This document shows positions 57,805 through 62,154 of a DNA stretch of 64,000 bases, piece after piece. The stretch spans positions 1 to 64,000 of the forward strand of contig QWRD01000006.1 in the NCBI GenBank assembly GCA_003670575.1, in the 5' to 3' direction. The notes beneath the pieces were generated by a model, which saw only the letters and a program-made list of their open reading frames with translations, searched no databases and was not told where the DNA came from. A program made the translations under genes and the position numbers. Each line of letters starts with the position of its first letter. Positions within the stretch are counted from its first letter, which is position 1. Source of the stretch: Chloroflexota bacterium. GTDB lineage: Bacteria; Chloroflexota; Dehalococcoidia; UBA2979.

Positions 57805-58635
57805 TCAGCGGCCGGGAATGTACAACCCACCCGGCGTTGGTGGCAGTTCCGGTGGCGTGGACGATGCTGCGTCCTCCGCCATGAGGCGGTCGACGTCGGC
57901 CTGGGTGTAGTACGGCGAGGTCAGCACGGCCGGCCGCTCCACCTCGCGGTCGTCACCGGCGGCGACGCGGCGCACCCACTCGACGAGTTCCGCTTCGCCC
58001 CACGTCCCGAGGCTGGCGATGCCGCCGACCGTCACCACGGGCACCTGATCCACGTTTCGACTGGCTGCGAAGATTGGGTACTCCACCAGCTCGGTGAACG
58101 TCGCTCGCACGTGGCGTGACGCGACCGCGAGCGCGGCGATCAGGCGCAGCATGTGCGCCGAGTGGCCGTCGTACATCGCGCCGAGCACGTCGATGGTCAC
58201 GTCGCGCTCGAGCGCGGCGAGCGTGGCCGTGCTGTCGTCACTGAGCGGGCTCTCGCCGGAGCCGAGGAATGCGATTGATTCCAGCACAGACTGGAACAAC
58301 GCCCCGGTCCACGCCCCGACGAATCGCAACTCTCGGCCGTTGATGCCCCGAAACACCGTGGTGGGCGCGCGGTCGATGCCGGCCTCGACGGCGCGGCCCG
58401 CGTGGCGATCCAGGTCGTACAGCGTGAGGCGGAACGCCGGGTGCAGCGCCGACAACTGGCGGGCGAGCGCGACCACCTCGGCCGCGTGCGTCGCGGGGTC
58501 GCGATCCGTCAGCAGCAGCGGCGATTCCTTGCGCGACCAGACGTCGAGCGCCACCGGCGCGTGTAGGCGCTGGTCGAGGAACTTCAGGACGGCTTCCTGC
58601 GCCTCACTGTCGAAACCGGTATCGGAAGTTGTCAT
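57805..58635 (-). CDS. Cysteine-free thioredoxin-fold (PDO/glutaredoxin-like) protein
   Basis: A 276-residue protein whose layout matches the tandem thioredoxin-fold protein disulphide oxidoreductases: strand-helix units at about 22-115 and 128-215, with the cis-Pro region VDQVPVVTVGG. At the expected CXXC site in the second fold the sequence is AMYDGHSAHM, and the whole protein contains no cysteine, so thiol redox chemistry is excluded. A Pro-rich tail follows. The start overlaps the stop of the CDP-alcohol transferase (ATGA). A binding or scaffold role is possible. Confidence 0.7.
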   Translation of the reverse strand: MTTSDTGFDSEAQEAVLKFLDQRLHAPVALDVWSRKESPLLLTDRDPATHAAEVVALARQLSALHPAFRLTLYDLDRHAGRAVEAGIDRAPTTVFRGINGRELRFVGAWTGALFQSVLESIAFLGSGESPLSDDSTATLAALERDVTIDVLGAMYDGHSAHMLRLIAALAVASRHVRATFTELVEYPIFAASRNVDQVPVVTVGGIASLGTWGEAELVEWVRRVAAGDDREVERPAVLTSPYYTQADVDRLMAEDAASSTPPELPPTPGGLYIPGR

Positions 58636-59237
58636 CGGCGACCGTGCCGCTGCAGTAGTCGAATGCCAATGAGCAGCCGCTGGAGCGCGGTGAGAGTGGT
58701 GAGCACGGCCAGCACCCACAGTGCGATCGTGAGGTAACCGAGGATCAGTGCGCTACCCAGCAACAGCACGCGTTCCGGGCGTGTGAACAGCCCGTCAGTC
58801 ATCTCGACGCCCAGTCCCTCGGCGCGCGCGCGCACGTAGGAGACCATCAGCGACCCGACCACGGCGACGAACGCGAGCACTGCCGCAGTGTCGTTGCGGG
58901 TGCCGAGCACGTACATGAACGCCCCGAGGAGCACCACTGCTTCCGATGCGCGGTCCAGCGTGGAATCGATCAGTGCCCCTGCCGGAGATGCGGTATTGGT
59001 TGCACGGGCGAGCGCGCCGTCCAACAGATCGAGCGCGCTGGCGAGCAGCATGATCGTGCCGCCTATGAAGAGCGCACCCTGCGAGATCACGATGGCCGCC
59101 GCGGCGTTGCCGGCCAGTCCGGCCAGCGAGAGCGCCATGGGCGTCACGCCCGCGGCTGCCAGCCGACGCACGATAGGCGCCAGCACGAAGGCCGGGAGGC
59201 GCGACGGCAGAAGCCGGAAGGTGGTCACGCGCGCCAT
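58632..59237 (-). CDS. CDP-alcohol phosphatidyltransferase (probable phosphatidylinositol-phosphate synthase)
   Basis: Membrane enzyme of 201 residues with the complete family motif D70-x2-D73-G74-x2-A77-R78-x8-G87-x3-D91-x3-D95. Several hydrophobic spans follow. Next to an inositol-phosphate synthase gene, the likely reaction is CDP-diacylglycerol plus inositol 3-phosphate giving phosphatidylinositol phosphate, as for the actinobacterial enzyme; phosphatidylglycerol-phosphate synthase is the alternative. The start overlaps the end of the upstream glycosyltransferase remnant by 13 nt. Confidence 0.88.
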   Translation of the reverse strand: MARVTTFRLLPSRLPAFVLAPIVRRLAAAGVTPMALSLAGLAGNAAAAIVISQGALFIGGTIMLLASALDLLDGALARATNTASPAGALIDSTLDRASEAVVLLGAFMYVLGTRNDTAAVLAFVAVVGSLMVSYVRARAEGLGVEMTDGLFTRPERVLLLGSALILGYLTIALWVLAVLTTLTALQRLLIGIRLLQRHGRR

Positions 59238-59993
59238 TGCATCCACCTCCCCTCTGCTCTCGCATCCATGTCCGCGGTCACGGTTCCCGCTGCGGCCACG
59301 CGTCCAGTGGTCAGGGCACGCTCCGTCCGCAGCCGATCGTAGTAGGAGATGAACTGTTGCGTCACCCGGGGCCAAGAGTACTCCTCCGCGCGGAGCTGTC
59401 CGGCTCGGCCCAGGCGCTGGCGCGCACCGGGGTCACGCGCCAGTGCGGTCAGCACGTCAGCCAACGCAGATGAGTCCTTCGGCGGCACCAGCAGCCCTTC
59501 CACCCCGTGGCTCAGGACAGAAGCGTACCCCTCGATGTTCGATGCGACGACTGGCAGGGCGGCAGACATCGCCTCAAGCAGCACATATCCCTGCGATTCG
59601 TTGCCGGTGGCAGGCGAGCAGAAGATGTGCGCGCTGCGGTGGTAGCGCGGCAGGTCGACGTTCGATACGCCATCGACGAAGACGATGCTCGGTCCGGCCT
59701 CCTGCCCGATCGTGGCACGGTAGCGGCGAAGGCGCCGCGAATCCGGTCCCACGACGATGAGACGCGTGGCGGGGATGCGGGCGTGCAGCATCCTGAACGC
59801 CCGAAGCAGGTACGGCAGGCCTTTCCGCTTTTCGGCGCGTCCCACGTACAGCACGTTGATCGCGCCGTCGTCGAATTCCGGCAGTGGTGTGAGCGCGGGG
59901 CTTGCCCAGCACGTTCGCTCCGGCGATCAGCAAGCGGCCGGGCAGCAGGACGCTGGCCGCCATAAGGAACCGAAGCAGCGCGTACTGAATCAT
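59225..59993 (-). pseudogene. GT4-family glycosyltransferase, N-terminally truncated and frameshifted (PimA-like)
   Basis: The C-terminal half of a GT-B glycosyltransferase is clear from 59854 down: VLYVGRAEKRKGLPYLL, then SPATGNESQGYVLLEAMSA (sugar-nucleotide site) and EGLLVPPKD. Upstream, the same frame reads ALTPLPEFDDG but meets stops; the preceding residues (LLPGRLLIAGANVLGK) lie in another frame, and removing one base from the C run at 59897-59900 (minus strand) would join them. The roughly 170-residue N-terminal acceptor domain is missing: only about 100 bases separate this point from the upstream gene. Probably a decayed phosphatidylinositol mannosyltransferase, unless the assembly is wrong here. 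Confidence 0.7.
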
Positions 59994-60006
59994 CGACGCC
60001 GCCGTG

Positions 60007-60927
60007 TCATCGTGGCCGGACGGCGCGGTCGGCGGTCCAGAGCGAGCGGAAGATGTACCACTGCTCCGGTGCGCGCTCCACCTGGCGTTACAGTGCTCGC
60101 ATGGTCGCTTGCGTGAGCGCCTGCGCATCGAAGGTGGGATCGCCGGTGGGCGCCACGTCGATCTGCTCCCACGCCACATGAACATGTTCGCTCATCGGCT
60201 GCGTGCGCGGGAGCGTCACAGCGAATACCGCCGCGCCGGAACGCAGCGCGAGGCAGGCCGCACCGTCCGCGACACGCATCGGAGCGCCGAAGAATTCCAC
60301 TTCGATCCCTGCGTCATCGGGCGGTGGCACGTCGATCAGTATTGCGATGACATGGCGACGTCGGAGCGCGCGCAAGAGGCTCGGCCCCACGCGCTCGGCA
60401 GGCACGATCGTCATGCCGAGGTGGCGGCGCGCGCCGAGCACCAGTTCGTCCAGCCTCGAGTCGGGGAAGCGGTCGGCGACGACGGTGATCGGCGTGCCGT
60501 GCGCCGCGATAGCGGCAGCGCCGAGGTCCCAGTTCCCGTAGTGCATGGTCACGAAGACGATGCCGCGTCCGGCAGCGCGTTCCGCGTCGATGCGCTCCCA
60601 GCCATCGAAGTGCACGCGCGCGCGTACCTGCTGTGCGTTGATCGCGGTGAAGCGGAGGAAGTCGACGAGATACGCGCCGTAGTTGGCGAAGGATTGGCGA
60701 GCGAGGCTGCGGGCACGCGCGTCGGCGTCAGGGTCGTCGCGCAGCACGTGCCGCATGTTGGCGATGCTGCGTCGACGGCCACCGGCCCAGGCGTAGTACG
60801 CCAGCACACCGGCCGCACGCCCCACTCGATAGGAGAGCCAGAGCGGGGCCGCGCGCGCCAGCGCCGCTGCACCACGCACTGCCCAGTAGACCACCGTCCA
60901 CGTCGCAGACCGCCAGTACCGATGCAC
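60007..60927 (-). pseudogene. PatA/LpxL-type acyltransferase with an in-frame stop
   Basis: Membrane-associated acyltransferase of the lipid A / phosphatidylinositol mannoside family: catalytic HX4D in MHYGNWD, then VVADRFPDSRLDELV and ILIDVPPPDDAGI. The frame stops at TAA 60088-60090 after ATMRAL, but continues in the same frame for 26 codons to TGA 60007-60009 and encodes PEQWYIFRSLW, the conserved C-terminal signature of the family. A single C-to-T change (CAA to TAA) explains this. The start is GTG 60927 (GGAG upstream) or ATG 60993, which would overlap ino1. The truncated product may keep some activity. Confidence 0.75.
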
Positions 60928-60946
60928 TGGGCGCTCCGCATCCGGC

Positions 60947-62020
60947 CTAGCCCGCGATGAACGCCTCGAGGTTGTCGCGCGCCTCGTCGTCATGGACCTG
61001 CTGCGGCGGGGACTTCATGAAGTATGCGGACGGCTCCAGCAGCGGGCCGCCGATGCCACGGTCGAGCGCGAGCTTCGCGCAGCGAATCGCGTCGATGACC
61101 ACGCCCGCGGAGTTCGGGCTGTCCCACACCTCGAGCTTCGTCTCCAGCGTCAGTGGCACGTCACCGAACGTGGTGCCCTCGATGCGGATGTGGCACCACT
61201 TGCGGTCCTGCAACCACGGCACGTGGTCCGACGGCCCAACGTGCACATCGGCGGTCGGCAGCACGTAGTCGATCTGCGAGGTGACCGCGTTCGTCTTGGA
61301 TATCTTCTTCGACAGCAGTCGTTCGCGCTCGAGCATGTTGAGGAAGTCGGTGTTGCCGCCGAAATTCAGTTGGTACGTGCGGTCAATGCGCACGCCGCGA
61401 TCCTGAAAGAGCCGCGCCAGCACTCGGTGCAGGATCGTGGCGCCGACCTGCGACTTGATGTCGTCGCCGATGATCGGGAGGTTGCGCTCCTTGAAGCGGT
61501 TGCCCCAGTACTCCTCCCGCGCGATAAAGACCGGGATGCAGTTGATGAAGGCGCAGCCCGCGGCCAGCACCTGCTCCACGTACCACTTCGTCGCCTCCTC
61601 GGAGCCGACGGGGAGGTAGTTGATCACCACGTGGGTGTTGGTGCTCTTCAGGATGTTGACGATGTCCGCCGTCGGGCCGGGCGCCTTCGTGATGATCTCG
61701 GACAGGTACTTTCCGAGTCCGTCGTGCGTCATGCCGCGAGAGACGGTTACGCCGCTCTTCGGCACGTCAGCGAACTTGATGGTGTTGTTGGGCTCAGCGT
61801 AAATCGCCTCGGAGAGGTCCTTGCCGACCTTGTTGACGTCGATGTCGAACGCGGCGGTGAAGTTGATGTCCCGGATGTGGTACCCGGCGAGCACCGGGTG
61901 CATCAGGCCGGGGATCGACTCGCCGTCCTCCGCGCCCTTGTAGAACTCCACGCCCTGGATCAGCGATGAGGCGCAGTTGCCGACGCCGATGACCGCTACG
62001 TTGATCTTCTCGTCAGCCAC
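60947..62020 (-). CDS. ino1: Inositol-3-phosphate synthase
   Basis: NAD-dependent enzyme that makes inositol 3-phosphate from glucose 6-phosphate. From GTG 62020, with GGTGGAG five nt upstream, the product is 357 residues. Motifs: [16 protein letters not shown] (NAD), [26 protein letters not shown] and [12 protein letters not shown], with the catalytic lysines in the last two regions. First gene of the inositol-lipid operon; divergent from lysR. Confidence 0.96.
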
Positions 62021-62154
62021 TCGGCTCCACCCTTCTTCGCAGCCCGTGGCTGCGCGACGCGAGCGTGTGCACGCTCCAGCGGCGCGCTCATGCGCCACCA
62101 TTCAACGATATGGGTCGCGAACACATTGGACAAGTAAAACTAATGCATTGAATA

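Follow-up and report, generated by a model that had tools for sequence, protein, structure and literature searches.

A putative PIM-type inositol-lipid operon lacking ~2.2 kb and carrying a premature stop codon in an uncultured freshwater Chloroflexota bacterium

Introduction

The closest described system is the early PIM operon of mycobacteria, Rv2612c pgsA1 - Rv2611c patA - Rv2610c pimA (PMC3229680). PimA is a two-domain enzyme (PMC3229680) and, according to references given in PMC3229680 and PMC7502851, it is essential in mycobacteria. The mycobacterial phosphatase that converts PIP to PI still awaits identification (PMC6506517). A literature search pairing PIM with Chloroflexi returned no match.

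A gene cluster of Chloroflexota resembles this operon in holding together a CDP-alcohol phosphotransferase, a PatA-type acyltransferase (AT1) and a PimA-type glycosyltransferase (GT4), and in relatives GT4 and AT1 match PimA and PatA best among solved structures. It differs from the mycobacterial operon in gene order and by including ino1, two acyltransferases (AT1 and AT2) and a PHP-family phosphoesterase. At the locus described here it is also damaged, with AT1, AT2 and GT4 broken and PHP missing. Both explanations considered, an operon broken not long ago and an artefact of the MAG, are of familiar kinds.

Genomes compared

The window, i.e. the whole stretch of DNA analysed, comprises bases 1-64000 of C33, a 71.8 kb contig belonging to a MAG of 1.34 Mb and 36 contigs that is 67.6% complete with 0.5% contamination (G000). 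Its host is an uncultured Chloroflexota bacterium from lake/freshwater and belongs to the same genus as RH-chloro-G1, which is listed as the nomenclatural type of 'Bathosphaera prima' (PMC12451612) and was taken to be our genome G001 (locus on contig QWQU01000036.1). Two congeners, G001 and G002, had data at the locus, and a search for a second genome of the window's species found none. Sister genus g8 of the same family was represented by G009, G023 and G032 (94, 84 and 84% complete), and another family of the same class by G056.

Results

Organization of the operon

In relatives the order of genes is ino1 - AT1 - AT2 - PHP phosphoesterase - GT4 (PimA-like) - CDP-alcohol phosphotransferase - thioredoxin-like gene. 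Eighteen relatives carry AT1 and GT4 on a single contig; their order is AT1-AT2-GT4, and nearly all have PHP ahead of GT4. In family members GT4 is full length. The window, on its minus strand, has ino1, AT1, a short interval, only the C-terminal domain of GT4, the CDP-alcohol phosphotransferase and the thioredoxin-like gene, as follows.

60947..62101, minus strand: ino1, inositol-3-phosphate synthase, intact (TIGR03450 536.7 bits, cut-off 638; 91% identity to G002 over 354 aa)
60088..60993, minus strand: AT1, PatA/LpxL-type acyltransferase, truncated after codon 301 (PF03279; best NCBIfam match PRK07920, PIM acyltransferase, below cut-off; 45-63% identity to family members)
60007..60087, minus strand: conserved PEQWYIFRSLW end of AT1, cut off from the rest of the protein, with the gene's own stop (frame read past the TAA and aligned with relatives)
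59904..59993, minus strand: AT2 stub, first ~30 codons of the second acyltransferase, MIQYALLRFLMAASVLLPGRLLIAGANVLG (AT2 directly follows AT1 in relatives; profile match)
59904..59911, minus strand: putative deletion junction, at which codon ~30 of AT2 runs out of frame into codon ~195 of GT4 (comparison with relatives; ~2.2 kb absent)
59225..59908, minus strand: PimA-like GT4 remnant that retains only the linker and the C-terminal (donor-binding) domain (PF00534 without PF13439; 53-70% identity to GT4 C-domains of family members)
58632..59375, minus strand: CDP-alcohol phosphotransferase, phosphatidylinositol-phosphate-synthase-like, intact (PF01066; PIPSynth NF045883 120.6 bits, below the cut-off of 170; 48-64% identity to family members)
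57805..58719, minus strand: thioredoxin-like protein at the operon end, intact (TIGR02187 78.9 bits, below cut-off; syntenic in relatives)

The start codon of ino1 is uncertain, the alignment of relatives beginning at about residue 30, and the true start of the phosphotransferase is probably at ~59237. Gene order and the flanking prfB, LysR-type, truB and infB genes are common to the window and to G001, G002 and G004. The operon is intact in these three relatives, including both congeners with data; in the window ~2.2 kb of it is missing and a stop interrupts AT1. Measured between residue 301 of AT1 and residue 198 of GT4, the spacing is 2355-2505 bp in 16 of the 18 relatives (the exceptions being G026 with 1779 bp and G030 with 3553 bp), compared with ~236 bp in the window.

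Two lesions rather than three

The initial annotation described three clustered lesions, i.e. an in-frame TAA that removes the PEQWYIFRSLW end of the acyltransferase, loss of the N-terminal domain of the next glycosyltransferase and a one-base shift in a C run. The TAA was confirmed at 60088-60090, in a column that holds Glu in 20/20 aligned relatives (seen directly in G002). Beyond it the frame stays open for 26 codons, RQVERAPEQWYIFRSLWTADRAVRPR, until the native stop (60009-60007), and aligned relatives keep an end of the PEQWYIFRSLW type. Owing to this TAA, AT1 does not have the complete C-terminal end expected of a PatA; the H-x4-D catalytic motif, conserved in relatives, is present as HYGNWD.

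The other two claims reduce to a single lesion. The N-terminal domain of GT4 is indeed missing, and the frame does change; both result from a single out-of-frame join of AT2 to GT4 at 59904-59911, so a homopolymer shift was discarded. The AT2 stub scored 15.6 bits against a profile of relatives' AT2 N-termini, the best of 300 shuffles reaching 9.7 bits. On the other side, the reading frame of the GT4 remnant is open from 59854 (GTG), and its linker, which extends to the junction (~59908) in a frame other than that of AT2, gave a profile score of 58 bits. The idea that the paralogues AT1 and AT2 had been collapsed into one was rejected, the end of AT1 and the start of AT2 both being there in order. 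Due to the fact that both flanks are syntenic and contiguous with G002 and G004, the locus is better described by a simple internal deletion than by a misjoin of distant regions. Judged by the relatives, a single deletion of ~2.2 kb would account for the loss of PHP as a whole, of AT2 beyond its first ~30 codons and of the N-terminal half of GT4, and the two sides of the junction plausibly share TGGGC, at most CTGGGCA (5-7 bp). The locus therefore has two lesions, this one and the TAA in AT1, and four affected genes; the breakage of AT1 and GT4 had been recognized before, and the loss of AT2 and PHP became visible in the comparison with relatives.

Surviving parts and the rest of the window

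Excess changes at columns invariant in relatives were found neither in AT1 (1/44, where single relatives deviate at 0-7) nor in the GT4 remnant (2/55, single relatives at 0-4), i.e. decay has not visibly begun. Moreover, among the genes of the 64 kb window that have syntenic homologues in G001, G002 or G004, no other one was found broken. Since the surviving parts are without decay at conserved positions and the search of the window brought up no further broken gene, the lesions are either recent or artefactual. Nothing pointed to genome-wide error or decay; what looked like a frameshift near 18.26 kb is an antisense shadow frame, split in G004 too.

Functions of the encoded proteins

Homology supports the earlier assignment of the locus as a PIM-type inositol-lipid operon. 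Intact GT4 of G002 aligned with the PimA structures 4n9w/2gej over residues 1-372 (E 3e-52, 181 bits; next structure 84 bits), and intact AT1 of G002 had PatA 5oce/5f2t as best solved structure (E 2e-14), ahead of LpxL-type. In the window, similarity to PimA covers only the C-terminal domain and not the full two-domain length, and AT1 scored 128 bits with its best model, PRK07920 (cut-off 209). The best NCBIfam match of AT2 is also the PIM acyltransferase model, below its cut-off. The phosphotransferase carries the CDP-alcohol motif D-x2-D-G-x2-A-R-x(7-8)-G-x3-D-x3-D as DLLDGALARATNTASPAGALIDSTLDR; NF045883 is among its three best models, though its score is below the curated cut-off.

As previously proposed, ino1 and the phosphotransferase are intact, and the host would likely still make phosphatidylinositol from them. 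The caveat is that the phosphotransferase fits models of the PIP-synthase type while falling below their cut-offs, and that in mycobacteria the PIP from this enzyme needs a phosphatase to become PI. A PHP-family phosphoesterase lies within the PIM-type operon of many Chloroflexota (in G002, L023:5872-6663, and orthologues), where it co-occurs more with the acyltransferase pair than with the PIP-synthase-like gene. It is thus no clear candidate for the PIP phosphatase and was set aside in that role; genus g8 keeps the PIP-synthase-like gene without a PHP orthologue, and other PimA-bearing genomes are also without PHP.

Search for replacement genes and missing pieces

The genes for mannosylation and acylation are broken, as the initial annotation had it, and the assembled 68% of the genome yielded no further gene resembling PimA or PatA. 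AT1 is the only PF03279 acyltransferase in the assembly. Such absence is weak evidence because about one third of the genome is missing from the assembly. The missing parts of AT2 and of the GT4 N-domain were sought across the assembly and not found, and the search with PHP gave a weak paralogue only; no misplaced copy of these pieces was thus found on another contig of the assembly. The only GT4 N-domain in the assembly is on contig C31, and the sole other GT4 C-domain is in the same protein, which is MshA-like (TIGR03449 384 bits, cut-off 462) and adjoins a BshB/MshB-type deacetylase (L039:2484-4609). This pair points to a mycothiol-like pathway, which might also draw on the ino1 product.

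Clean loss of the cassette in a sister genus

All three genomes of g8 (loci L051, L052 and L053) lack exactly AT1-AT2-PHP-GT4 and keep ino1, the CDP-alcohol transferase and the thioredoxin-like gene, with the same flanking genes. As in the window, ino1 and the transferase are retained while the mannosylation and acylation genes are gone; unlike the window, the loss is clean, with ~100 bp from ino1 to the transferase and no remnants detected. The full cluster is present in G056, and because that genome belongs to another family, absence in g8 is most simply a loss. Hence such cassette loss happens naturally, and the cassette is dispensable in the family. In seven genomes of the same class (G038, G040, G042, G044, G046, G047 and G049) we observed a PimA-like GT4 with no match to a PatA-like acyltransferase and no close PHP orthologue, so parts of the operon vary separately in other families.

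Discussion

The evidence leans slightly towards a real and recent deletion at this locus. The proposed course is a single ~2.2 kb deletion, which may have arisen at the 5-7 bp microhomology, together with one nonsense change in AT1, on which the loss of the mannosyltransferase could have relaxed selection. The cell, or part of the population, would then make a non-mannosylated, non-acylated inositol phospholipid through the intact ino1 and CDP-alcohol transferase. The synteny of the flanks, the ~5-7 bp shared at the joint, the lack of leftover pieces and the precedent of g8 all speak for it.

The chief rival is a local assembly fault, in which the true cluster would be intact, a chimeric or low-coverage read or gap closing having joined AT2 to GT4, and the TAA would be a consensus error. 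We regard this as less likely, though a serious competitor. Both lesions lie within ~180 bp and none was found elsewhere in the 64 kb, which also fits one bad or chimeric read; the conserved columns are pristine, both congeners are intact and the MAG is only 68% complete, all of which counts against a real deletion. Intact genes in relatives, which the initial annotation had named as refuting real damage, were found, but they are not proof of an assembly fault because the relatives are other species and g8 lost the same cassette naturally. On the other hand, there is no N run, no other part of the assembly contains the absent 2.2 kb, and the flanks are syntenic and contiguous. The k-mers usual in short-read assemblers are longer than the ~5-7 bp overlap, so the joint was probably crossed by some read.

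MAGs are consensuses of populations, and the deletion might be present in only part of this one, with the assembler giving the short path while other cells have the full cluster. The recent look of the lesions would fit such a young variant; however, the bin holds no second path or leftover contig with AT2, PHP or the GT4 N-domain (these could be unbinned), and we consider a strain mixture improbable. A further reading, with a genuine AT1 stop that is read through or does no harm and a GT4 C-domain active as a single-domain enzyme, is hardly credible: both remnants keep conserved residues, but the stop removes the conserved QWY-F-W end, GT-B enzymes require both domains (cf. two-domain PimA, PMC3229680), and the GT4 remnant has neither its N-domain nor a PF13439 partner in the operon.

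If the locus were an assembly fault, it would give only a caution against inferring lipid phenotypes from one MAG. If instead the deletion is real, this is a bacterium losing PimA/PatA-type lipid modification with inositol-lipid synthesis retained, and, taken with the clean loss in g8, the cassette would be dispensable in some freshwater Chloroflexota. Tentatively, and at somewhat less than an even judgement, we suggest that loss of the PIM-type mannosyl/acyl cassette with inositol-phospholipid synthesis kept is recurrent in this Chloroflexota family, complete in g8 and mid-process in the window's species. In that case the lineage would serve as a natural experiment: PIM-like lipids are essential in mycobacteria, and it would show whether other organisms can do without them.
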